A DNA stretch of 52,979 nt, from positions 1 to 52,979 of the IMG/VR virus record IMGVR_UViG_3300028490_000010. One strand, given 5' to 3'. Below are positions 18,729-48,602 of the stretch, in pieces. The notes under the pieces were generated by a model. It was not told where the DNA came from. It worked only from the letters and a program-made list of their open reading frames with translations, and ran no database searches. The DNA comes from a virus. The translations under genes were made by a program, and so were the position numbers. Numbering within the stretch: position 1 is the first letter of the stretch; each line of letters begins with the position of its first letter.

Positions 18729-19703
18729 TTATGTTGGTCCGCTTGCATCTCCAAACGCACCTTTCGGTAAGTCCCACCCACCACTCAAGATAATTTCTTG
18801 GTCGTATGTTTTGGACATAGCTAATCTATAGACGTCCGGCTCAACATTATATGCTGTTCCTTTATCTGCTTGTTCAACAATACTCATAGTGCGATGAATG
18901 GTTACATCAAACTCTGCCTCGTATGCAGCCACCTTGTTGAAGTGGTCTGGCATATACTTCGCTACGGTTGCCCATTGGTTAGGGCTGCCGAATATACACG
19001 TAAGACAAGATGTTCTACCCCACCCTGCTTGATAAGCTGGATGTGGGTTCACTCCGTATTGTTTTAATAAGTCCCATACTTGAGCCTCAGTAGCTTCTTT
19101 TGCTATTCTGGCATGGTAGATCAATCTCTTGGTCCTTTTGCCGTCTATGAAGCTCCTGTGTGTCTCAAACGACTTGTATTTTGCTCGTGCTGCAGACTCC
19201 TCTGCTCTCTCGCCAGTTATTACGAGATACTTCCTGTTGCCACTAAATCTAAATTGACGCTTTATTAATCTATCACCTACGTCTATTTTAAGGGCACTCG
19301 AACACCATCTGGTTGCCAGGTTTGCAGTGACCTGTGGAAACTTACGCCTTGTTCCTAATGGAGGGTTCTTTAATCCACCTGGGGCATAAACAATCTCATG
19401 GTTCTCATCCTCAAACATTATTGCTTCGGTTGCATCTTCCTCTCTTAACATCTCTCTTTCAAACCCACCAACACGCCAAGACATATACACCTTTGAGCCA
19501 AATGCTTTGCCGAATGCACGACAATAGCTTTCAGTAATAGGCCAATCCATAAGGGAGCTTCCCTCATTTCCGTCAATTAAGTGATGATGTAGTTCGATTT
19601 TATCCGGGCTAACGCCGGCTTCAAGTAGTTTAAGGTAGCAGAAAACTGAGTCTTTGCCACCAGAGAAGAAGAGTATAACCTTGTCATACTCCTCATATTT
19701 CAT
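18729..19703 (-). CDS. PAPS reductase-family (PP-loop) protein
   Basis: A 324-residue N-type ATP pyrophosphatase. SGGKDS (14-19) is the PP-loop, RWCSSALK (132-139) includes the family cysteine, and GERAEES (164-170) and the CLTC pair (233-236) follow. These features match phosphoadenosine phosphosulfate reductase-like proteins common in phages, which include relatives of the DNA phosphorothioation enzyme DndC. The natural substrate here is not known: sulfur activation, tRNA or DNA thiolation are possibilities. The three cysteines could bind a metal or Fe-S cluster. ATG 19703 has AGGGATTG. No other dnd gene is seen. Confidence 0.88.
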   Translation of the reverse strand: MKYEEYDKVILFFSGGKDSVFCYLKLLEAGVSPDKIELHHHLIDGNEGSSLMDWPITESYCRAFGKAFGSKVYMSWRVGGFEREMLREEDATEAIMFEDENHEIVYAPGGLKNPPLGTRRKFPQVTANLATRWCSSALKIDVGDRLIKRQFRFSGNRKYLVITGERAEESAARAKYKSFETHRSFIDGKRTKRLIYHARIAKEATEAQVWDLLKQYGVNPHPAYQAGWGRTSCLTCIFGSPNQWATVAKYMPDHFNKVAAYEAEFDVTIHRTMSIVEQADKGTAYNVEPDVYRLAMSKTYDQEIILSGGWDLPKGAFGDASGPT

Positions 19704-33908: not shown

Positions 33909-35457
33909 CTTTTTCTCCTTCATTAATTTTCACATTACTCTCAACCAGTGCTTTTGCAAGCATAGGAACAACGCTGTTTCCACACATTCTAACCTGTGCC
34001 GTTTTAGGCAACTGCTTACCCTCATACATGATATTAATCTTGTAATCCTCTGGGAAGCCTTGTGCTCTGTACAGTTCCCTGGGAGTGAACATTCTCATTG
34101 CAATATCTACAATCTCGTACTCCTGTCCCATGACCTCCACTATTGCAAATCTCTCTTTAGTGGTAACTGTATGGGCAGGGTCACTCAGTAATTGACCTTC
34201 ACCCTGTCCGTAATATTTCATCATGTAGGCACGTACTTCTGCAAAGTGTCCTCCGCCTGCCGTGACAGTATGTAGAGGAGTATCTGTCTTCAGTCCAGTA
34301 TTCCCATTACGCATCTTCATAACATGAGATGTAACGAGTTGCTGTTGAGAACCTGTTGCCGTAACTGTAGACATAGGATTGTCCGCCTTTCTACCAACGG
34401 CACCAAGGTTATGCTGAGCGATAAACGCATTCACTAAAGCGAATGTCCCACCCTTTGTCTGAGCAGTGATTGTTCTCAAAGGCTCATCTATCTTAAAGTT
34501 ACGCTGAGATGATCCATTTGCATGCTCTGTAATAATAGGAGTTACAAGGGAGTGTCTGCTTCCTCCTGCAGTTATCGTACCTACTGGTGCATCAATCTTG
34601 TTGCCACGAGCTGTGGCTCCTATAGCTCCCCCGTAAAATGTAGACACAAAAGGAGCTTTGTCCCCAACGATATACGGCTTCGGGTTATCTAAAACAAATT
34701 TCTTTAACCCTCTTGCTATTCGTTTCATCGTATTCTCTGCGAGTGGTCTACGCACTTTAACCACCTTTGCCTCCTCTTTTGAAAGAAATATTGAGTGAGT
34801 AGGGATAGACCAATCTATACATTCTGCAGCAGTTCTCCATGGAATTCTTTCAGGAAACTTATCCGGGTCTCCATGTGTAGCTTCTGGCCACGACACAGCA
34901 CTTCCATCTTTCTTTGCCACAATAAACAGTCTCTTCCGTATCGTAGGTGCTCCGTAGTCACTAGCTCTAAGCTCACGCCACTCCACATTGTAGCCCATGT
35001 CTCTAAATGCCTGTACAAAGATTTCAAAGGTTAACCCCTTGTCCTCTTTTATTGGCATGTTATCGTCATCTAGTGGACCCCAATCTTTAAACTCCTCAAC
35101 ATTCTCAAGCATGATAACGTCAGGGCTAACTGCTTTTGCCCACTTTACACCAACCCAAGCAAGACTTCTCACATTGCAACTTACAGGCTTTGAGCCTTTT
35201 GCTTTAGAGAAATGCTTACAGTCTGGACTTAGCCACAACATTGCAACCTCTTTGCCACCACATACTTCATCAGGGTCAACATCAAAAACATCTTCTATGT
35301 AATGCTTTGTGCTTGGATGATTTGCCTGATGTAGTGCTATAGCCTGTGGGTCATGGTTAACTGCCACATCAGGACTAACACCCAATGCCATTTCAATACC
35401 CGTACTTGCTCCACCGCCACCGGCGAACAAGTCTATAATCATTTTTCCATTATACAT
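33901..35457 (-). CDS. DNA (cytosine-5) methyltransferase
   Basis: A 518-residue C5-cytosine methyltransferase. Motif I is DLFAGGGGAS (9-18), the catalytic cysteine is C80 in SPDCKHFSKA, ENV is at 118-120, RKRLFIV is at 174-180 and the motif X region is RMCGNSVVPM (490-499). The residue before the catalytic cysteine is Asp instead of the usual Pro. Between motifs VIII and IX the target-recognition region holds five similar segments, each containing P-x-x-T-(I/V)-T, at residues 291, 326, 361, 394 and 427 (periods 33-35). No cognate endonuclease is adjacent, so self-protection or anti-restriction is the likely role. ATG 35457 has AGGATAGGTG upstream. Confidence 0.95.
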   Translation of the reverse strand: MYNGKMIIDLFAGGGGASTGIEMALGVSPDVAVNHDPQAIALHQANHPSTKHYIEDVFDVDPDEVCGGKEVAMLWLSPDCKHFSKAKGSKPVSCNVRSLAWVGVKWAKAVSPDVIMLENVEEFKDWGPLDDDNMPIKEDKGLTFEIFVQAFRDMGYNVEWRELRASDYGAPTIRKRLFIVAKKDGSAVSWPEATHGDPDKFPERIPWRTAAECIDWSIPTHSIFLSKEEAKVVKVRRPLAENTMKRIARGLKKFVLDNPKPYIVGDKAPFVSTFYGGAIGATARGNKIDAPVGTITAGGSRHSLVTPIITEHANGSSQRNFKIDEPLRTITAQTKGGTFALVNAFIAQHNLGAVGRKADNPMSTVTATGSQQQLVTSHVMKMRNGNTGLKTDTPLHTVTAGGGHFAEVRAYMMKYYGQGEGQLLSDPAHTVTTKERFAIVEVMGQEYEIVDIAMRMFTPRELYRAQGFPEDYKINIMYEGKQLPKTAQVRMCGNSVVPMLAKALVESNVKINEGEKVA

Positions 35458-40505: not shown

Positions 40506-41468
40506 TTATCGAGTACGTTCGACCAGTCCACGCATCGACTTTGCAAGAGTTCTTACTTCCCACTGAGCCTTTCCAGCACTTCGCAGTTCTACCATATCAT
40601 CGAATTGTGGCTTAAACCAAGCTGACCAGATCTTAGTAATTGCACCTTGAGGAATAATCCTCCTTGCGTCTTGAGGTTTCACTCCATTCTCTATTGCTTT
40701 ATCATAGAGCTGTAATGCAAGCATCACTAGAGAAGTAGCATCAATATGTCTATGCTCGCTTATTGGAACAGAGATTTTATCGCTTAACATATCCTCTGTG
40801 AGGTAAACCTCAAACGGAACTTTCTTCCCGGACACATATCTTCGTGACAACTCCTGCCATGATGTTCTATGTCTCATGAACTGCCTAGCCGTAACGATAT
40901 CTATCTCTGTGTGAAAGACATAGAAGTTTTCGTGGATCAAGGCTATCTCGGTAGGGTCTGTGTTAAAAAACCTTTCTGAGGGATCAATCCTTTCATCTTC
41001 CGCAAGAAACTTATTAATAATTTCAATATCATACAGTAAAGCTCTTAGGTTAGTAAGCCTGTACACATCTCTGCCATAGACAACAGTCATACCATACTTT
41101 TCAATATGAGGGCCTTGAGTAAAATTACCCATGCCGCTAATAAGATGTCTCATGTATTCATTATTGATAAACTCTGCATCAAACGAGTTAAGCAGTACCG
41201 GCACAAATTCAAATGATGATGACGGCAGCCCTAGCGACTCAGCGTGTAGCTTGTCATACAAGGCAGATGTGCCAACCTTGACATTGCTCTGGAAGCATAT
41301 AGAGGCTACCTTTTGTACCGCATCAATTCTAGCCTGCTGATTTGAATTCGCATAACTAAAATCCCATTTCTCTGCCGAACCAGCAGAACCAAATAGACCG
41401 GTATCCTTCGCCATAGGGATAACTTGATCTACATCAACTACCCCTTCTTCTGTCATCTTCTTTTCCAT
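40506..41468 (-). CDS. thyX: Flavin-dependent thymidylate synthase ThyX
   Basis: A ThyX-type enzyme making dTMP from dUMP with FAD and folate. The flavin/dUMP signature reads FMRHRTSWQELSRRY (RHR at 199-201), one residue shorter than the classical RHR-x7-S form. The downstream KPQDARRIIP, ELRSAGKAQWEVRTLA region matches the usual ThyX C-terminal core. The N-terminal 120 residues are longer than in typical ThyX (220-250 aa). ATG 41468 follows AAGGAAATAG. Together with the dUTPase and ribonucleotide reductase it completes a dTTP route. The stop is followed in phase by 61 open codons. Confidence 0.93.
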   Translation of the reverse strand: MEKKMTEEGVVDVDQVIPMAKDTGLFGSAGSAEKWDFSYANSNQQARIDAVQKVASICFQSNVKVGTSALYDKLHAESLGLPSSSFEFVPVLLNSFDAEFINNEYMRHLISGMGNFTQGPHIEKYGMTVVYGRDVYRLTNLRALLYDIEIINKFLAEDERIDPSERFFNTDPTEIALIHENFYVFHTEIDIVTARQFMRHRTSWQELSRRYVSGKKVPFEVYLTEDMLSDKISVPISEHRHIDATSLVMLALQLYDKAIENGVKPQDARRIIPQGAITKIWSAWFKPQFDDMVELRSAGKAQWEVRTLAKSMRGLVERTR

Positions 41469-41659
41469 ACTATTTCCTTATATTTCTCGTACATGTTTAA
41501 AACAAACATCCCGACTGCCATTGCTGGCCACATAACTACTGCCGTTTTATAGAACGACTTTTCCTCTTCTTTTAGCATCTGGTTTGAGTGCAACCAAAAT
41601 AAGAATACGACAGTGCTACCTCCGAGGTAGAATGTTAATAATATCTGTAATGTCTGCAT
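41453..41659 (-). CDS. Small membrane protein, two TM segments (68 aa)
   Basis: MQTLQILLTFYLGGSTVVFL from ATG 41659 (AAGGACTATATAG). Two hydrophobic segments (QILLTFYLGGSTVVFLFWL and AVVMWPAMAVGMFVLNMY) and a basic C-terminus (YKEIVWKRR). Its role is unknown. It overlaps thyX by 16 bases and the preceding small gene by 44 bases. Confidence 0.72.
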   Translation of the reverse strand: MQTLQILLTFYLGGSTVVFLFWLHSNQMLKEEEKSFYKTAVVMWPAMAVGMFVLNMYEKYKEIVWKRR

Positions 41660-41780
41660 CTATATAGTCCTTCTTCTTTTTCTTTTTCTTTTTCTTACCA
41701 CAATCACAATGATTGGCAATCGCTGCAGTAACTGCTGTTGTCACAACTGTTGCTGCAAGTTCTAAGACAAATCTTTTCAT
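41616..41780 (-). CDS. Small protein with TM segment and polylysine run (54 aa)
   Basis: From ATG 41780 with GAGGTGAGGC upstream: MKRFVLELAATVVTTAVTAA, then CDC and nine consecutive lysines, then an acidic/hydrophobic tail (DYIDADITDIINIL). The hydrophobic first 22 residues could be a membrane anchor or signal. The lysine run suggests nucleic-acid or membrane-surface binding. Function unknown; overlaps the next gene by 44 bases. Confidence 0.6.
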   Translation of the reverse strand: MKRFVLELAATVVTTAVTAAIANHCDCGKKKKKKKKKDYIDADITDIINILPRR

Positions 41781-41789
41781 GCCTCACCT

Positions 41790-42029
41790 CTACTGTTCTG
41801 GCCAACCGGCATCAACCTTCTCAACAAAACTATTGAGGGCAGACCCTGGGATTAGCTTCTTCTCTGACCCTGTACCTATTGTCTTATCCATAACATACCC
41901 TACTTCCATATTGTCTCTTGTTACAGATATGACCATAGTGGCTGTATCTTCTATCTCTTTAAAGTGAACTTCCAGTCCAAGCTTAATCAGCTTTTGTATT
42001 GCGTTCACTCTATCGTTTCCTGTAGCCAT
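41790..42029 (-). CDS. Hypothetical protein (79 aa)
   Basis: MATGNDRVNAIQKLIKLGLE from ATG 42029, with AGGAAATAGT upstream, immediately after the primase stop (1 base). A helix is followed by beta segments (DTATMVISVTRDNMEVGYVM). Function unknown. Confidence 0.77.
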   Translation of the reverse strand: MATGNDRVNAIQKLIKLGLEVHFKEIEDTATMVISVTRDNMEVGYVMDKTIGTGSEKKLIPGSALNSFVEKVDAGWPEQ

Positions 42030-42030
42030 A

Positions 42031-43641
42031 CTATTTCCTCGCTTCTTCTTCTAATTGGAGTATCTTTACCTGTGCCTCACGTATCTGCATAAGCTTTTTT
42101 TCTGTGGACATTGAACTGCTTGACCTAATGCGTGACACAAATGTCTTCATGCACCAAATCTTGAACAGTCTTATATCTGCATGTAGATTACCTGACGTGA
42201 TTGTATTCTCGTCCAAGAATATATCGGTGAGTAACTGATTGTCGAACTCCATATTCTTTAGAGCTTCAAGCTCCGCCTTTAGTGAGAAGCATTTCTTTAC
42301 CTCCATAATCTGAGATATATCCTCTTCACTGCCTGACAATATTGCAGCCTTGATGAGTTCACGTTCACGCATTTCAACGACACCTACGTCTCGTCTACCT
42401 ACGGCAACTTCCCTCGAAATCTCTGGCTCTATTGTCCCAAGTATCGATGACGCTTCTTCAAGAATTGCCTTTGTCACGAGTGGTGACATCTGGCTTGCAA
42501 ACTTTTGTACCTCATTGAACGCTTTTGTTTTGTCAAAAGGATTGTTTAAATCATGCCCAATAAGTAGTCTGTCTATACAGAAGCGTATAGATGGTATTCC
42601 ATTTTTCATCATCTTCACGATATCCTGCCCTCTCCCTTGGGAGATTAGATCAGCAGGATCTTCACCATCGTCAAAAATTACCACCTTTGTATCTATCATA
42701 TTTCGTATGAATAGTTCTGCAGCTTTAAATGCTGCTTCTATCCCTGCTCTATCTCCATCATAGGCTATAATCCCCTTATCGGCGAACCTTCCTATTATCT
42801 TAACATGAGCTGGAGTGAGTGCTGTGCCCATTGAAGCAAAAGAATATTTAAGTCCAACCTGATGCTGCATAACAACATCCATTTGTCCTTCACTAAGTAT
42901 GAAAAACTTCTTCTTAGATATTACTTCTTTTGCTCTATCAAATCCATACATCAATGACGATTTATGAAATAGCGGAGTATCTTTGGTATTCACGTATTTA
43001 GCAGGATGACTGCCTATTGTTCTACCACTATACCCACAGAGCTTTCCCGTATGGTCTCTAATAGGGAACATTATTCGTTCAATAAATCTACCATACAGGC
43101 CGTTTTCGCCTAAGTCTATTATCCCAAGTGCTATTGCTTCGTTCTCCGTCATAACGCTACGTCTTACGAAATCAACAACCTCACGAGATGATGTGCTGTA
43201 ACCTATTTCAAAATCAGAAATGGTTGAGTCTGACACCCCTCTATCTCTGAGATATTTGAGTGCTACTTCGTTGGTTTGCAACTTTTTCATACACCAGTCT
43301 TTGTACATTTCAAGAGGAGCAGAGCTGAGTCTCGGTTGCCCGTCATCATTCTCTTGCTCTACTGTTATGTTGTACATATCACAAAGCTTTTCTACGGCCT
43401 CTGGGAAGTTAAGATTTTCTATTAGTTGCACAAGCTTTATGGCGTCGCCACCTTGTCCAGAGCTAAAGTCGTGCCATATTCCCTTACTTGGTGTTACTGT
43501 GAAGCTTGGAGTTTTCTCGGAGTTAAATGGTGATAACCCCTTGAACGCTCCTCCTGCCTTTCGCAACTCAACATAGAGTTCAGCGACTTCAACAACGTCA
43601 ACGGTATTCTTAAGAGTATCAATAGTTGTACTCTTTATCAT
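42031..43641 (-). CDS. dnaG: DnaG-type DNA primase with degenerate zinc site
   Basis: A 536-residue DnaG-like primase that synthesises RNA primers at the replication fork. The N-terminal domain retains the family's SPFNSEKTPSFTV (37-49) but the zinc ligands are changed: the usual CPFH reads SPFN and the usual HCFGC reads HDFSS (57-61). The TOPRIM domain has EGQMD (251-255) and DGDRAG (295-300). The remaining C-terminal region probably binds the helicase. The start ATG 43641 follows AGGAGGGATGCG. It is in the same operon as the ribonucleotide reductase and lies 6 kb from the helicase. Confidence 0.93.
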   Translation of the reverse strand: MIKSTTIDTLKNTVDVVEVAELYVELRKAGGAFKGLSPFNSEKTPSFTVTPSKGIWHDFSSGQGGDAIKLVQLIENLNFPEAVEKLCDMYNITVEQENDDGQPRLSSAPLEMYKDWCMKKLQTNEVALKYLRDRGVSDSTISDFEIGYSTSSREVVDFVRRSVMTENEAIALGIIDLGENGLYGRFIERIMFPIRDHTGKLCGYSGRTIGSHPAKYVNTKDTPLFHKSSLMYGFDRAKEVISKKKFFILSEGQMDVVMQHQVGLKYSFASMGTALTPAHVKIIGRFADKGIIAYDGDRAGIEAAFKAAELFIRNMIDTKVVIFDDGEDPADLISQGRGQDIVKMMKNGIPSIRFCIDRLLIGHDLNNPFDKTKAFNEVQKFASQMSPLVTKAILEEASSILGTIEPEISREVAVGRRDVGVVEMRERELIKAAILSGSEEDISQIMEVKKCFSLKAELEALKNMEFDNQLLTDIFLDENTITSGNLHADIRLFKIWCMKTFVSRIRSSSSMSTEKKLMQIREAQVKILQLEEEARK

Positions 43642-43659
43642 CGCATCCCTCCTTTCATG

Positions 43660-43854
43660 TTAGTCTTCTATTTTATCAACAGATACAATCTCGCTAGACA
43701 ATTCTGCTATGTCTGAGCACTCAACTATATCCACTTCTAAACAGTCACCTGTCTTTAGTTTATGCTTAGCCTCTTCTTCAGAAGATGCCTCAACAATAAC
43801 TTCTTCGACTGTCATGGAAAGTGAGTTGCGATTTACTACAATCTTATACTTCAC
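43660..43854 (-). CDS. Small hypothetical protein (64 aa), GTG start
   Basis: GTG 43854 lies in a GTGA junction with the upstream gene and gives VKYKIVVNRNSLSMTVEEVI, a beta hairpin followed by ASSEEEAKHKL. The longer frame to TTG 43869 lacks a binding site. Resembles the DpnD/PcfM-like small proteins. Function unknown. Confidence 0.7.
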   Translation of the reverse strand: MKYKIVVNRNSLSMTVEEVIVEASSEEEAKHKLKTGDCLEVDIVECSDIAELSSEIVSVDKIED

Positions 43855-44021
43855 AATAGACTCGCACAAACAAATGCTGCTGCGAAAGCCAGTCCTGGAG
43901 CAAGAATAAACCCAATGAATACATCAAATTTATTTGCTCTTTTCTCTTTGTATATACCTATTAGGGTTGCCATCGTAACGACAACAAACCAAAAGCACAT
44001 AGCCCCTGATACATATATCAT
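43851..44021 (-). CDS. Small membrane protein, two TM segments (56 aa)
   Basis: MIYVSGAMCFWFVVVTMATL from ATG 44021 with AGGAGGGAAT upstream, then a polar loop (YKEKRANKF) and a second hydrophobic segment (FIGFILAPGLAFAAAFVCAS). A membrane hairpin is likely. Position between nucleotide-metabolism genes gives no clue to its role. Confidence 0.72.
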   Translation of the reverse strand: MIYVSGAMCFWFVVVTMATLIGIYKEKRANKFDVFIGFILAPGLAFAAAFVCASLL

Positions 44022-44029
44022 ATTCCCTC

Positions 44030-44416
44030 CTAATACTGTCTTCTAAAATCTGTTGCGAAAAGGGTATCTCCTCCGCCATTTCTGACTTGCTTACCTAGTG
44101 CAACAACATCACTTCTTGAGTCATTAAGTAAGTTCACTACTTGACCAGACACAACATACATTGTGCCATCAACCTCATCTGGTAATCCAGATATCCCACC
44201 ATAGACATCTCTTACAACAGGAAACCCTGCATGCTTTTCAATGTCTGGAGGCTTCCTATCTATTCTTGCGACCACTCCACTCTGAGGTATCTCAATAAGG
44301 GCACCTCCGTCTAGTGGTGAAAGAATTTTGATATCATGATTGGTCAAGTTTACGATGCACTGACCATCTTGGACCACAGCCTTTAAGCCATCTGGTCTAC
44401 TGAACACCTTGTGCAT
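44030..44416 (-). CDS. Hypothetical protein of the NLT(N/P)H-type family (128 aa)
   Basis: CIVNLTNHDIKILSPLDGG, then IPQSGVVARI and later DVYGGISGLPDEVDGTMYVV match a pattern seen in many bacterial and phage small proteins ('NLTPH.I......G....IP.SG..AR'). The function of that group is unknown. ATG 44416 has AGGTGTTGACAA. It sits between the NrdB-side gene and the small membrane gene. Confidence 0.78.
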   Translation of the reverse strand: MHKVFSRPDGLKAVVQDGQCIVNLTNHDIKILSPLDGGALIEIPQSGVVARIDRKPPDIEKHAGFPVVRDVYGGISGLPDEVDGTMYVVSGQVVNLLNDSRSDVVALGKQVRNGGGDTLFATDFRRQY

Positions 44417-44882
44417 TTGTCAACACCTCTTTAACCCCATCAATACTGAGGATATTGTCGATGTTTTCCTGTGTTGCAGGCCCTTTGTAAATCCTGCCCT
44501 CTCCACTATCTAATAGTGTAGCGATATTCCCCAACTCTTCTGCCTTTGCAATCAAGGATGCTCTCCAAGACGCTAAGATTTCTTCATCCGTCTGCTCTTT
44601 AAGTTCAGGCTCAATCACTACCTCTTCTTCAGTTGGAGTTTCTGCTTCTACAGTAGGCTCTTCTCTTACAGGAGGCTCTGGTTGCTCCCCAAGTTCAAGA
44701 AATGTTTTAATTTTCTCTTGGTCGTCGCCAAATTCATCTGACCAGTTCTGTCTACGAGCAGGTTGAGCCAAGTCAACCACAATACCACCGTCTTCTGCAA
44801 TCGTATAAATACCAACCTTGCGGCTCTTGTAACGGATAATTCCGCCCTTATCATTTTCTCTGCTGTGTGTAAATTCACTCAT
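44397..44882 (-). CDS. Hypothetical protein with acidic proline-rich linker (161 aa)
   Basis: MSEFTHSRENDKGGIIRYKS from ATG 44882 (AAGGAGAAG). A basic N-terminal region, then a Glu/Pro-rich linker (QPEPPVREEPTVEAE), then a helical C-terminal segment. It overlaps the NrdB gene by 8 bases. No family recognised. Confidence 0.79.
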   Translation of the reverse strand: MSEFTHSRENDKGGIIRYKSRKVGIYTIAEDGGIVVDLAQPARRQNWSDEFGDDQEKIKTFLELGEQPEPPVREEPTVEAETPTEEEVVIEPELKEQTDEEILASWRASLIAKAEELGNIATLLDSGEGRIYKGPATQENIDNILSIDGVKEVLTNAQGVQ

Positions 44883-45984
44883 TTTCTTCTCCTTGATTTG
44901 TTAAATACCCTTCTACACTAAGTTTTGTAGAGGTATACGTTTTTGGACTTGACTCGAAAAAGTTTGACTTAATCTTGTTTGGGTCATCATACATTTTTTC
45001 ATAGACAGATAGTGGACTTACAGGATCACCATATAGTTTTCCAAAGCCCATTCCTGTCATAAGCATGTCTGCTTTTCCATGGATATATCTTGAGATAGTA
45101 GCTTCGTTAAACTCAGCAATCTCACCTTGTGTTAAATAGTGCAACCATTTAATCTCTATCTCAACTGTTGCAGTAACAGCCTCTCTAGCCATGTCCTCAA
45201 CCTCTACCCTTGAAATTCCTGGATAGGATTTTAGAGTGCTCGTCAAGATCTGTCTGAACAGCAAGACGTGAGTTCTTTCGTCTCTGGCAATAAAAGATAT
45301 CATTGACGCAGAGCCTTTCATTGTTGTACCTAAATACCAAAACCACACAAACCCAGCATAGAACATTAATGCTTCAAGAATGTTGTTTGCTATCATCGCC
45401 TTTAGCAAGCTTCTCATAGAGACACCCTCTCCCTTTGAATAAGCCAGATCAGAATACATATTCTCAAGAAATTCATTTCTCTCTCTTAGGACAGCATCTG
45501 TGTTGTACATCTTGTATATCTCGTCACGGTTAGGACTCACATCCTTAAGCATGACATCATACGAGTCAGAGTGTAGTGCCTCATCAAAGATTTGCCTAGC
45601 CATACACTTTGCAATATTTCCATCTGTAATAAATGGCATCATGCTACCGGCTAAGTTTCTTGTCTGTACACTATCGTTAAAAATCAGTGCAGAAATAGCA
45701 AGGTCGTAACCTCTTTTCTTTACATCAGAAAGCTTCATATACGCAATTCCATCAGAAGTCATATCAACCTCTTCTGGCCCCCAGTCATTTCCCCTCATGA
45801 TTGGGAATAGGTTTTGAGCCCATTGGAACGGACTGTTTGTTGGGTCTATCATCCCGTCAACATTTGATCCAACAGGGGCTGCTTCAGAAGCATCCTGTGT
45901 TGGGTTTGGGTTGAACAGGACAGCTTCATAGACTATAGAGTCAAGCGTCATATCTTCAGGTTTAACAGTATTGTATGTTTTCAT
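44875..45984 (-). CDS. nrdB: Ribonucleotide reductase class I beta subunit
   Basis: Contains the six metal ligands expected of NrdB: D104, E135, H138, E204, E236 and H239, within FNDSVQTR, DEALHSDSY and RDERTH, and the tyrosine that carries the radical (Y142, positioned as Tyr122 of the E. coli enzyme). It provides the radical for reduction by the adjacent alpha subunit. Length 369 aa is usual. ATG 45984 has AGGAGAATAA. It starts 8 bases after NrdA ends, as in other phage nrdAB pairs. Confidence 0.95.
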   Translation of the reverse strand: MKTYNTVKPEDMTLDSIVYEAVLFNPNPTQDASEAAPVGSNVDGMIDPTNSPFQWAQNLFPIMRGNDWGPEEVDMTSDGIAYMKLSDVKKRGYDLAISALIFNDSVQTRNLAGSMMPFITDGNIAKCMARQIFDEALHSDSYDVMLKDVSPNRDEIYKMYNTDAVLRERNEFLENMYSDLAYSKGEGVSMRSLLKAMIANNILEALMFYAGFVWFWYLGTTMKGSASMISFIARDERTHVLLFRQILTSTLKSYPGISRVEVEDMAREAVTATVEIEIKWLHYLTQGEIAEFNEATISRYIHGKADMLMTGMGFGKLYGDPVSPLSVYEKMYDDPNKIKSNFFESSPKTYTSTKLSVEGYLTNQGEENE

Positions 45985-45992
45985 TTATTCTC

Positions 45993-48602
45993 CTATTGGC
46001 ACCCAGAACATTCCATGCTTCGGTCTAAAACCTCAAGCCTGTCTTGTGCTGGTGCAGTTGATCGTACATAGTACACAGATTTTAATCCAGAAAGCCAAGC
46101 TAGTCTGTAAAGACTTGCCATATATTTAACATCCACTTTTGCAGACGGCTTTATGAAAATATTGAATGATGTCCCTTGGTCAAATTTCTTTGTTCGGACT
46201 CCGTTCATTTCTATCGACAGTTCTTGACTTACATCATATGCCGACGGATAGTACGCATAATTTTCAACATTTAACCCAGGAGCTGTGACAGGAGTCATAC
46301 CCGAAAGGTTTTCCTCATACCATGATCTATCAAATACAGGTTCAAAACATGACGTTGTCCCTGTAAGTATAGATATAGAGCTTGTGGGAGCAATCGCATT
46401 AAGGTATCCGTTTCTCATAGGGTTTGGCCACTCTGAGCCTTTCCACTCTGGATAAGTACCTTTCTCTATAGCCAACTTCTCGGAAGCCTCAATACTTGCT
46501 TCTTGCAGCCAACCATAATACTTCTCTATGTATTCCACATGCTCTTCACTACCAAATGTAATCTTTCTATTTGCAATATCTTCAGCCTCGCCCATTGCAC
46601 CTAGTCCGATAGCTCTTGACGCCATAGCTGTATTTCTAATCTTCTCAGACGGATACAGGTTTACATCAATAACATTGTCCAACATACGTATTGCAACATA
46701 CACCTTCTTAAAGAACTCTTCTTTTGACAAATGAGTCATTTTTGAAAAGTTTGCCGACGCTAGGTTACAGATAGCTGTCTTACCTTTTGATCTGTACTCC
46801 TCAACAGCCATCACTTCCATGCCATCAATAAAGTCACCTTTCTCTATATACTTAGCTCTCTTCTCTCCGTCACCAGTAACAACTGTTTCAAACGCAGACA
46901 GCTCAATAACTTTAGTGCCATTCGGACTACTTTCATTTTCAAGAGCAAAAGAGTACATGTCTCTCTCAGGCTCTGTCACTTGAAATATCTCAGTACATAG
47001 ATTTGTTGAACGTATCATTCCAACATGCTTATTTTTGTTCTCTTTATTCGCAGTATCCTTATACCCTGCAAAAGGAACACCGTGTTTGTATGCAGACTGC
47101 ATAACTTCAGCCTGTAATTCTCTAGCTCTAATCTTAACTTTTCGGATGTTAGGATTTTCTTCAGCTTCTCTATAGAGACGCTCAAATTCCTCTCCATACA
47201 CTTCGTTAAGGAACGGAACATCATATGGATCAAATAGTGTCCACATCTCGTCATTGGCTTCTCTACGCATGAATTCATCAGAGTACCAAATACCTGGGAA
47301 GATATCTTGAGCACGATGTCTTTCTTCACCACCACTGTCTCGCATCTTAATAAATAAGAATACGTCCATGTGCCAATCTGGTACATAGTTAGCAAAAGCT
47401 CCCTTTCTAGTACCGAGCTGATCCACAGCAAGAGCAACATCATTGTCAATCTTAAGGAATGGTCTAAGCCCTTTAGCTACACCTTCATACGATGCAATCG
47501 TACTATCGTGACCTCTAACCTGAGACCAATCCCAACCAACACCACCACCAAGTTTAGACAAGAAAGCCTTCTCTTTATAACCATCAAAAATACCCTCAAG
47601 ACTGTCATCATTTGATCCAATAAAACAACTGGATAACTGGTGATGGATAAGTCTTGCATTTGATAATGTTGGAGTAGCAGTCATAACATCAAATAAACTA
47701 ATGATGTCATAGAACTTCTTTGCCCAATACTCTTTGTCTTTTTCTTTTTGTGCTAGGAACATTGCAATAGCCATAAACGCATGCTGTGGTAACTCTAATT
47801 GTTTACCATCCCCTGTAGTAATAGCATATCTATCAGCAAATGTAATGATGCCTAGATAAGTAAACTGAAGGTCACGCTCAGGCTTGATGTATGCACTCAT
47901 AACATCAAGGTCATACCCTTTATAGAATTCCTTGTGGAACTTACCTGTACTTAGTGCAAAATCAATATACTTAGACATATGCACATAAGGTGATCCCTTC
48001 TTCGTACCATACAGTTTTCCAACCTTGTGATACATACTGTCTAAAGTAAGTCTTGCTGCAACATACGTCCAGTTTGATGATGGTTCAGATATCTTTCCTA
48101 CGGCTGTCTTAATTATCGCACTCTGTAGCTCATCTGTGGTGATGCCCTCTTTCCATGTGATATGACTATCAATGATTAATTCAGCAGCACTAACTCCAGA
48201 TATTCCATCTGTAGCATTTTCCGCTTTCTCTGTCATTTTAGATAGATCCATAGGAGCTTTATAGCCACCTCTTTTTGTAACAGTATTTACCTGAGCGACT
48301 TTCTCAAATGGTCTATTACTAAGATGATGTAGGTCATTCATAATTAACTGATTTGATACTTCGAGAAGTTGATTATCTCCCATTGCAAGACCACGCTTCT
48401 TCGCATAGTCAATCAACAGAATATGTATTTCCTCAGTAGGAATTCCATCATACACACCATCAAGAACATGCTGTAATAACAACTCGTGCTCTTTATCTGG
48501 AAGACAAACACCATCAGGAGTGGAGTTGTCTATGGTCCTAGAAAGTTTTTCTAAGGAGAAAAGTTCAACCTCTCCACTCTTTTTAGTTACATCATGGTTC
48601 AC
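45993..48602 (-). CDS. nrdA: Ribonucleotide reductase class I alpha subunit, GTG start
   Basis: An 869-residue class I NrdA. An N-terminal ATP-cone-like region precedes the ten-stranded barrel. Redox cysteines C326 (LSSC) and C612 (AICNLAS) and the catalytic NLCTE (N534-C536-E538) are present, with Tyr844/Tyr845 for radical transfer and a C-terminal CSGC. Between C536 and C612 there are 76 residues, compared with 23 between C439 and C462 in E. coli, so about 50 residues are inserted. Translation starts at GTG 48602 after AGGAGGTAAAAA. It converts NDPs to dNDPs for phage DNA. Confidence 0.96.
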   Translation of the reverse strand: MNHDVTKKSGEVELFSLEKLSRTIDNSTPDGVCLPDKEHELLLQHVLDGVYDGIPTEEIHILLIDYAKKRGLAMGDNQLLEVSNQLIMNDLHHLSNRPFEKVAQVNTVTKRGGYKAPMDLSKMTEKAENATDGISGVSAAELIIDSHITWKEGITTDELQSAIIKTAVGKISEPSSNWTYVAARLTLDSMYHKVGKLYGTKKGSPYVHMSKYIDFALSTGKFHKEFYKGYDLDVMSAYIKPERDLQFTYLGIITFADRYAITTGDGKQLELPQHAFMAIAMFLAQKEKDKEYWAKKFYDIISLFDVMTATPTLSNARLIHHQLSSCFIGSNDDSLEGIFDGYKEKAFLSKLGGGVGWDWSQVRGHDSTIASYEGVAKGLRPFLKIDNDVALAVDQLGTRKGAFANYVPDWHMDVFLFIKMRDSGGEERHRAQDIFPGIWYSDEFMRREANDEMWTLFDPYDVPFLNEVYGEEFERLYREAEENPNIRKVKIRARELQAEVMQSAYKHGVPFAGYKDTANKENKNKHVGMIRSTNLCTEIFQVTEPERDMYSFALENESSPNGTKVIELSAFETVVTGDGEKRAKYIEKGDFIDGMEVMAVEEYRSKGKTAICNLASANFSKMTHLSKEEFFKKVYVAIRMLDNVIDVNLYPSEKIRNTAMASRAIGLGAMGEAEDIANRKITFGSEEHVEYIEKYYGWLQEASIEASEKLAIEKGTYPEWKGSEWPNPMRNGYLNAIAPTSSISILTGTTSCFEPVFDRSWYEENLSGMTPVTAPGLNVENYAYYPSAYDVSQELSIEMNGVRTKKFDQGTSFNIFIKPSAKVDVKYMASLYRLAWLSGLKSVYYVRSTAPAQDRLEVLDRSMECSGCQ

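Follow-up and report, generated by a model that had tools for sequence, protein, structure and literature searches.

Multispecific cytosine-C5 DNA methyltransferases, in which several target-recognition domains (TRDs) share one polypeptide, have to our knowledge been described chiefly in a small number of Bacillus phages. In these phage-borne enzymes (SPR, SPbeta, phi3T and H2), several tandem TRDs, each bearing a TL motif, are placed between motifs VIII and IX of a single catalytic domain. M.SPR, for instance, has three TRDs for three sites, and its translation, read by eye, contains the TL-type sites SPTITT, SHTLSA and PAFTVN. The TL motif of cytosine-C5 TRDs, (YFW)X(RK)X5P(STCA)PT(ILV)(TASV)X5-16H(PFYWL), sits 10-50 residues before motif IX and is flanked on either side by DNA-contacting loops (PMC2413257). 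According to the same source, Trautner and colleagues were the first to note the motif, on which they relied in defining and altering the specificities of multispecific enzymes, and single-TRD enzymes contain one TL motif each, T250-L251 in HhaI and T237-V238 in HaeIII (PMC2413257). The phage enzyme described here has the same catalytic motifs as HhaI and HaeIII but five TRD cores rather than one. It also resembles the Type I protein HsdS, in which, as stated in PMC12707154, variable recognition domains set the specificity; HsdS, however, is a separate subunit, and its two TRDs jointly read one bipartite site.

The gene is located in a stretch of 52,979 bases that makes up an entire viral record (hereafter, the window) and encodes a protein of 518 amino acids (Table 1), which the initial annotation took for a cytosine methyltransferase. 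Profile searches support this identity and specify the C5 type: the protein matches PF00145 with 134.3 bits (cut-off 22), TIGR00675 with 115.9 bits (cut-off 100.65) and, as the top-scoring PHROG, phrog_116 with 327.5 bits (E=3.7e-97). The latter is the nearest phage family, and its entry is named only "DNA methyltransferase", with no description of multiple TRDs. Motifs I, VI (ENV), VIII, IX and X were found in the translation and aligned to solved enzymes, and many columns are invariant in the family alignment of 58 sequences. The canonical form of motif IV is Pro-Cys-Gln (P-P-C-Q or F-P-C-Q); in the window protein, the Cys is retained, whereas the Pro is replaced by Asp and the Gln by Lys (SPDCK in the window, SPDC[KRT] in the family), and S-P-D-C is found at this position in all 366 distinct family members among the matches listed. 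Given that the profile scores exceed the curated cut-offs, the protein belongs to the superfamily despite this non-canonical motif. Nevertheless, an Asp preceding the catalytic Cys is unusual, and the methyltransferase activity is putative; with this Asp beside the catalytic Cys, the SPDC family puts to the test how invariable motif IV is.

Table 1. Coordinates of the methyltransferase gene and of its features in the window
Feature	Residues	Coordinates	Strand	Basis
Cytosine-C5 DNA methyltransferase (putative), 518 aa	 	33901..35457	(-)	Pfam, NCBIfam, PHROGs profiles
Motif IV, S-P-D-C	76-79	35221..35232	(-)	Alignment with P-P-C-Q of 3g7u
Predicted TRD unit 1, PVGTIT at 291	269-305	34543..34653	(-)	23.9 bits, unit profile
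Predicted TRD unit 2, PLRTIT at 326	306-342	34432..34542	(-)	23.7 bits, unit profile
Predicted TRD unit 3, PMSTVT at 361	343-375	34333..34431	(-)	31.7 bits, unit profile
Predicted TRD unit 4, PLHTVT at 394	376-408	34234..34332	(-)	51.5 bits, unit profile
Predicted TRD unit 5 (terminal), PAHTVT at 427, then motif IX	409-440	34138..34233	(-)	9.9 bits, unit profile, half-match
Motif IX region RMFTPRELYRAQGFPEDY	454-471	34045..34098	(-)	Aligned to 3g7u and DNMT1 chains

Upstream of motif IX, the translation contains five copies of the motif P-x-x-T-(I/V)-T spaced 35, 35, 33 and 33 residues apart, at exactly the positions given in the initial annotation, which had placed a five-fold repeat in the recognition region (34138-34650, that is, residues 270-440). 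The repeat is real by two measures. When residues 258-445 were shuffled 20,000 times, no copy of the motif was present in 19,694 of the shuffles, one copy in 304 and two copies in 2, and never more than two. Furthermore, a unit profile from whose training set the window protein and its nearest relative were excluded detected all five units, plus a weak half-match of 1.1 bits at residue 268 as a sixth hit, and gave no match on the catalytic part of the window protein. The summed unit score is 141.8, compared to at most 12.0 in 2,000 shuffles; the top single unit score in these shuffles, 12.0 bits, is higher than that of unit 5 and lower than those of the other four units. Unit 5 alone is not significant, whereas the five-unit series is; unit 5 fits only the first half of the profile because it runs into motif IX. 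In each unit, a short hydrophobic stretch is followed by a variable loop, the P-x-x-T-(I/V)-T motif and a second loop.

The periodicity had been considered foreign to target-recognition regions, an expectation at odds with two sources: Bacillus phages are reported to array several TRDs in one polypeptide (PMC12707154), and the repeated motif matches the core of the published TL motif (PMC2413257). The P-to-T spacing and the T-(I/V)-T core are the same in both, and the final copy in the window protein is located approximately 25 residues before motif IX. The complete published consensus also calls for aromatic and basic residues upstream, and no unit of the window protein fits it in full. Given the match to the TL core, the best reading of the region is a tandem row of five TRD cores, each 32-37 residues long. 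A continuous alignment to the SPbeta/phi3T enzyme, covering its last TRD and motif IX, was obtained with a profile of the last unit and motifs IX-X built from 22 sequences (11.6 bits and E 3e-5, search set of three sequences). No match to the SPbeta TRDs was found with the bare unit profile (-0.3 bits), and in profile searches of solved structures, the match extended up to motif VIII and resumed from motif IX, skipping the array. Prediction of the sites from the N-TL and C-TL trimers of PMC2413257 was considered and set aside because of differing loop lengths and a published spacing that seems not to suit the units.

Apart from the shared plan, the similarity to the SPbeta/phi3T enzyme is weak and fragmentary (33.9 bits, E=2e-5, in a blastp search of a three-sequence set), and close kinship with that enzyme was not found in this search. 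Motif IV is P-C-P or P-C-Q in the Bacillus phage enzymes as opposed to P-D-C in the window family, which also differs in its units, 32-37 residues long in the window protein and up to 9 per protein among the matches listed. Most likely, the window enzyme works in the manner of a multispecific methyltransferase, with a motif IV and an overall sequence that set it apart from the Bacillus lineage. In phi3T (L083:24156-26550), we observed two adjacent methyltransferase genes, one of which has a single short recognition region.

Relatives were collected in five scans of viral contigs and one scan of genome contigs. The best 80 matches of each yielded 479 loci, of which 472 contained a usable ORF (7 did not), for a total of 366 distinct proteins including that of the window; these are near relatives of the queries rather than a random sample. 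By record titles, the SPDC family is represented in viral contigs and in bacterial genomes from groups as far apart as Paenibacillus, Pseudomonas, Vibrio, Cupriavidus and Clostridia. The initial annotation had suggested checking whether the number of repeats varies within the family. It does: by the unit profile, the 366 distinct proteins among the matches listed contain from 2 to 9 units, namely 2 (5 proteins), 3 (20), 4 (74), 5 (90), 6 (90), 7 (52), 8 (27) or 9 (8). As a control, methyltransferase ORFs from 12 bacterial genomes were compared. Those of the P-C-Q/P type carry 0-1 strict motif (7/7; motif IV is canonical in six and P-P-C-P in the seventh), whereas those with S-P-D-C carry 3-6 (14/14, two of which look like repeat views of the same gene). 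This control comprises 21 readable ORFs; a further five loci yielded no ORF, and another four were duplicates. In a search limited to the open-licence literature, no listed paper described tandem TRDs in the SPDC family.

To compare the units across the family, 2,014 units from 358 proteins were sorted by average linkage (8 proteins were dropped for lack of anchors; single linkage chained most of the units together). The sorting produced 108 unit types, a number that depends on the cut-off, of which 24 have at least 10 occurrences. Several types are spread over many positions, such as the GYGER type with its 147 occurrences at positions 2-7 counted from the end. For 344 of the 348 units in 60 randomly drawn proteins, a unit of some other backbone cluster is more similar than any within the same protein (mean identity 74% against 38%). 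This pattern contradicts recent tandem duplication as the source of the units. Pairs of units at least 89% identical were found 700 times, in 574 protein pairs, between proteins with catalytic identity below 70%, and 251 of the 700 differ in position from the C-terminus. The sharing of near-identical units by diverged backbones points to movement of units from enzyme to enzyme or, alternatively, to very strong constraint.

The five units of the window protein are unequally represented among the 358 sorted proteins. The type of unit 1 is present in only 2, and its top match outside the nearest relative is 49%. Unit 2 belongs to a recurrent type, found 100 times in 11 backbone clusters, and is at most 73% identical to units elsewhere, and the type of unit 3 occurs 11 times in 4 backbone clusters. 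At the cut-off used, the type of unit 4 is limited to 2 proteins, yet in other proteins, units at or near the penultimate position share 68% identity with it. The type of unit 5 is found 150 times in 20 backbone clusters, in 147 cases at the last position.

Relatives in this family gain, lose and exchange whole units. The number of units differs in 229 of the 411 pairs whose catalytic parts are 92% identical or more, with the caveat that the pairs overlap and are not independent. Gains or losses of a complete unit among near-identical enzymes are also visible in the protein sequences. Five pairs were examined in DNA. In the clearest case (L178/L188), the genes are one clean, in-frame 96-bp unit apart, with DNA flanks that are 97% and 99% identical. 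Two other pairs differ by 105 bp (L224/L242) and 96 bp (L068/L078), with more diverged flanks, and in a fourth (L134/L161), the difference is less clean. The fifth pair (L229/L233) shows no DNA gap at all, so the unit sorting can miscount. The nearest relative of the window protein among the matches listed (L016, 65% identical) has counterparts of units 1, 3, 4 and 5, lacks unit 2 and contains a short extra stretch before unit 4.

From the sequence comparisons, we consider it probable that the window protein combines five independent TRD units with a shared catalytic domain, methylates several short sites and thereby protects the phage against several restriction enzymes. Each unit would present one short site to the common active site, such that up to five different sites would be methylated, or fewer if some of the units are scaffold. 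The methylation would shield the phage DNA against several restriction enzymes, and exchange of units would change the protection. Multispecificity is what we infer; what we observe directly is the units, the variation in their number, and that they are gained, lost and exchanged. The terminal unit may be structural and lack a specificity of its own because it is nearly fixed across the family.

Three other readings of the array have to be weighed. It is unlikely, although less so than the two readings that follow, that only one or two of the units, probably the fixed last ones, set the specificity and that the rest are retained as a stock for recombination, in the form of silent spares or decayed copies. 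Such an arrangement would fit the distribution of types, with the last and partly the penultimate position nearly fixed in type and the inner positions variable, and some TRDs of multispecific enzymes have been reported to be inactive. Conversely, the TL core is intact in all five units of the window protein, and cassettes of the same type are at least 89% identical between proteins with approximately 50% identical catalytic parts, which suggests selection or recent transfer rather than decay.

Somewhat less probable still, in our estimate, is a composite array akin to those of TALE or PUF, in which the units, each adding bases, would jointly read one long site. The regular period of 33-35 residues in the window protein is what such an array would display, and a variable number of units is typical of these arrays as well. 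However, units of the same protein belong to different types and share an average of only 38% identity, the spacing ranges from 32 to more than 40 residues, which would break a regular superhelix, and a TL motif is present in every single unit, as it is in complete TRDs. The proposal of the initial annotation that the repeats recognise an extended or short degenerate site is disfavoured: the units are distinct, their loops differ in length, and they are gained and lost singly, so that one extended or degenerate site appears less likely than several separate ones.

In AlphaFold models of the window protein (mixed-register alignment) and of a four-unit relative (L036; co-linear 30-row alignment), the catalytic part is good and the array has pLDDT <50. 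Although these values and the failure of the unit profile to match solved TRDs would agree with a single-specificity methyltransferase in which the repeats serve for oligomerisation or a non-specific grip on DNA, unrelated to TRDs, we regard this as highly improbable, given that the array occupies the necessary place of the TRD, between motifs VIII and IX, that residues ~195-265 preceding it are largely conserved between relatives and are therefore a poor candidate for variable specificity, and that the motif agrees with the TL core, and that a known TRD can be aligned with the last unit.

Five independent TRD units thus remain our preferred reading of the window protein, and with it the multi-TRD plan now extends to a different, common family whose members have as many as nine units and clearly exchange them singly. 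If the units are indeed independent TRDs, natural pairs of enzymes that differ by one unit would permit direct assignment of a site to each cassette, and the cassettes could be used for building enzymes of chosen specificity and for predicting the restriction systems that a phage escapes. A broader proposal, which we put forward tentatively and with somewhat less than even confidence, is that the SPDC methyltransferases of phages and prophages draw on a widespread common library of interchangeable TRD cassettes. Each recurrent type would read one fixed short site, the list of cassettes in an enzyme would give the sites it methylates and the restriction enzymes escaped, and retuning would proceed by gain, loss and swap of single units of 32-45 residues.

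The record contains no tRNA genes, a megablast search of bases 28000-52979 against 50,697 phage records gave no match, and no restriction gene was detected among ten window proteins scanned with Pfam. Nearly all long ORFs of the window are on the minus strand. The gene at 18729-19703 (minus strand) encodes a protein with a match to the PAPS reductase domain that is barely over the Pfam cut-off (23.4 vs 22.5 bits), and the region 40506-48602 on the same strand contains genes of nucleotide metabolism, namely those for ThyX and for the small and large subunits of ribonucleotide reductase.
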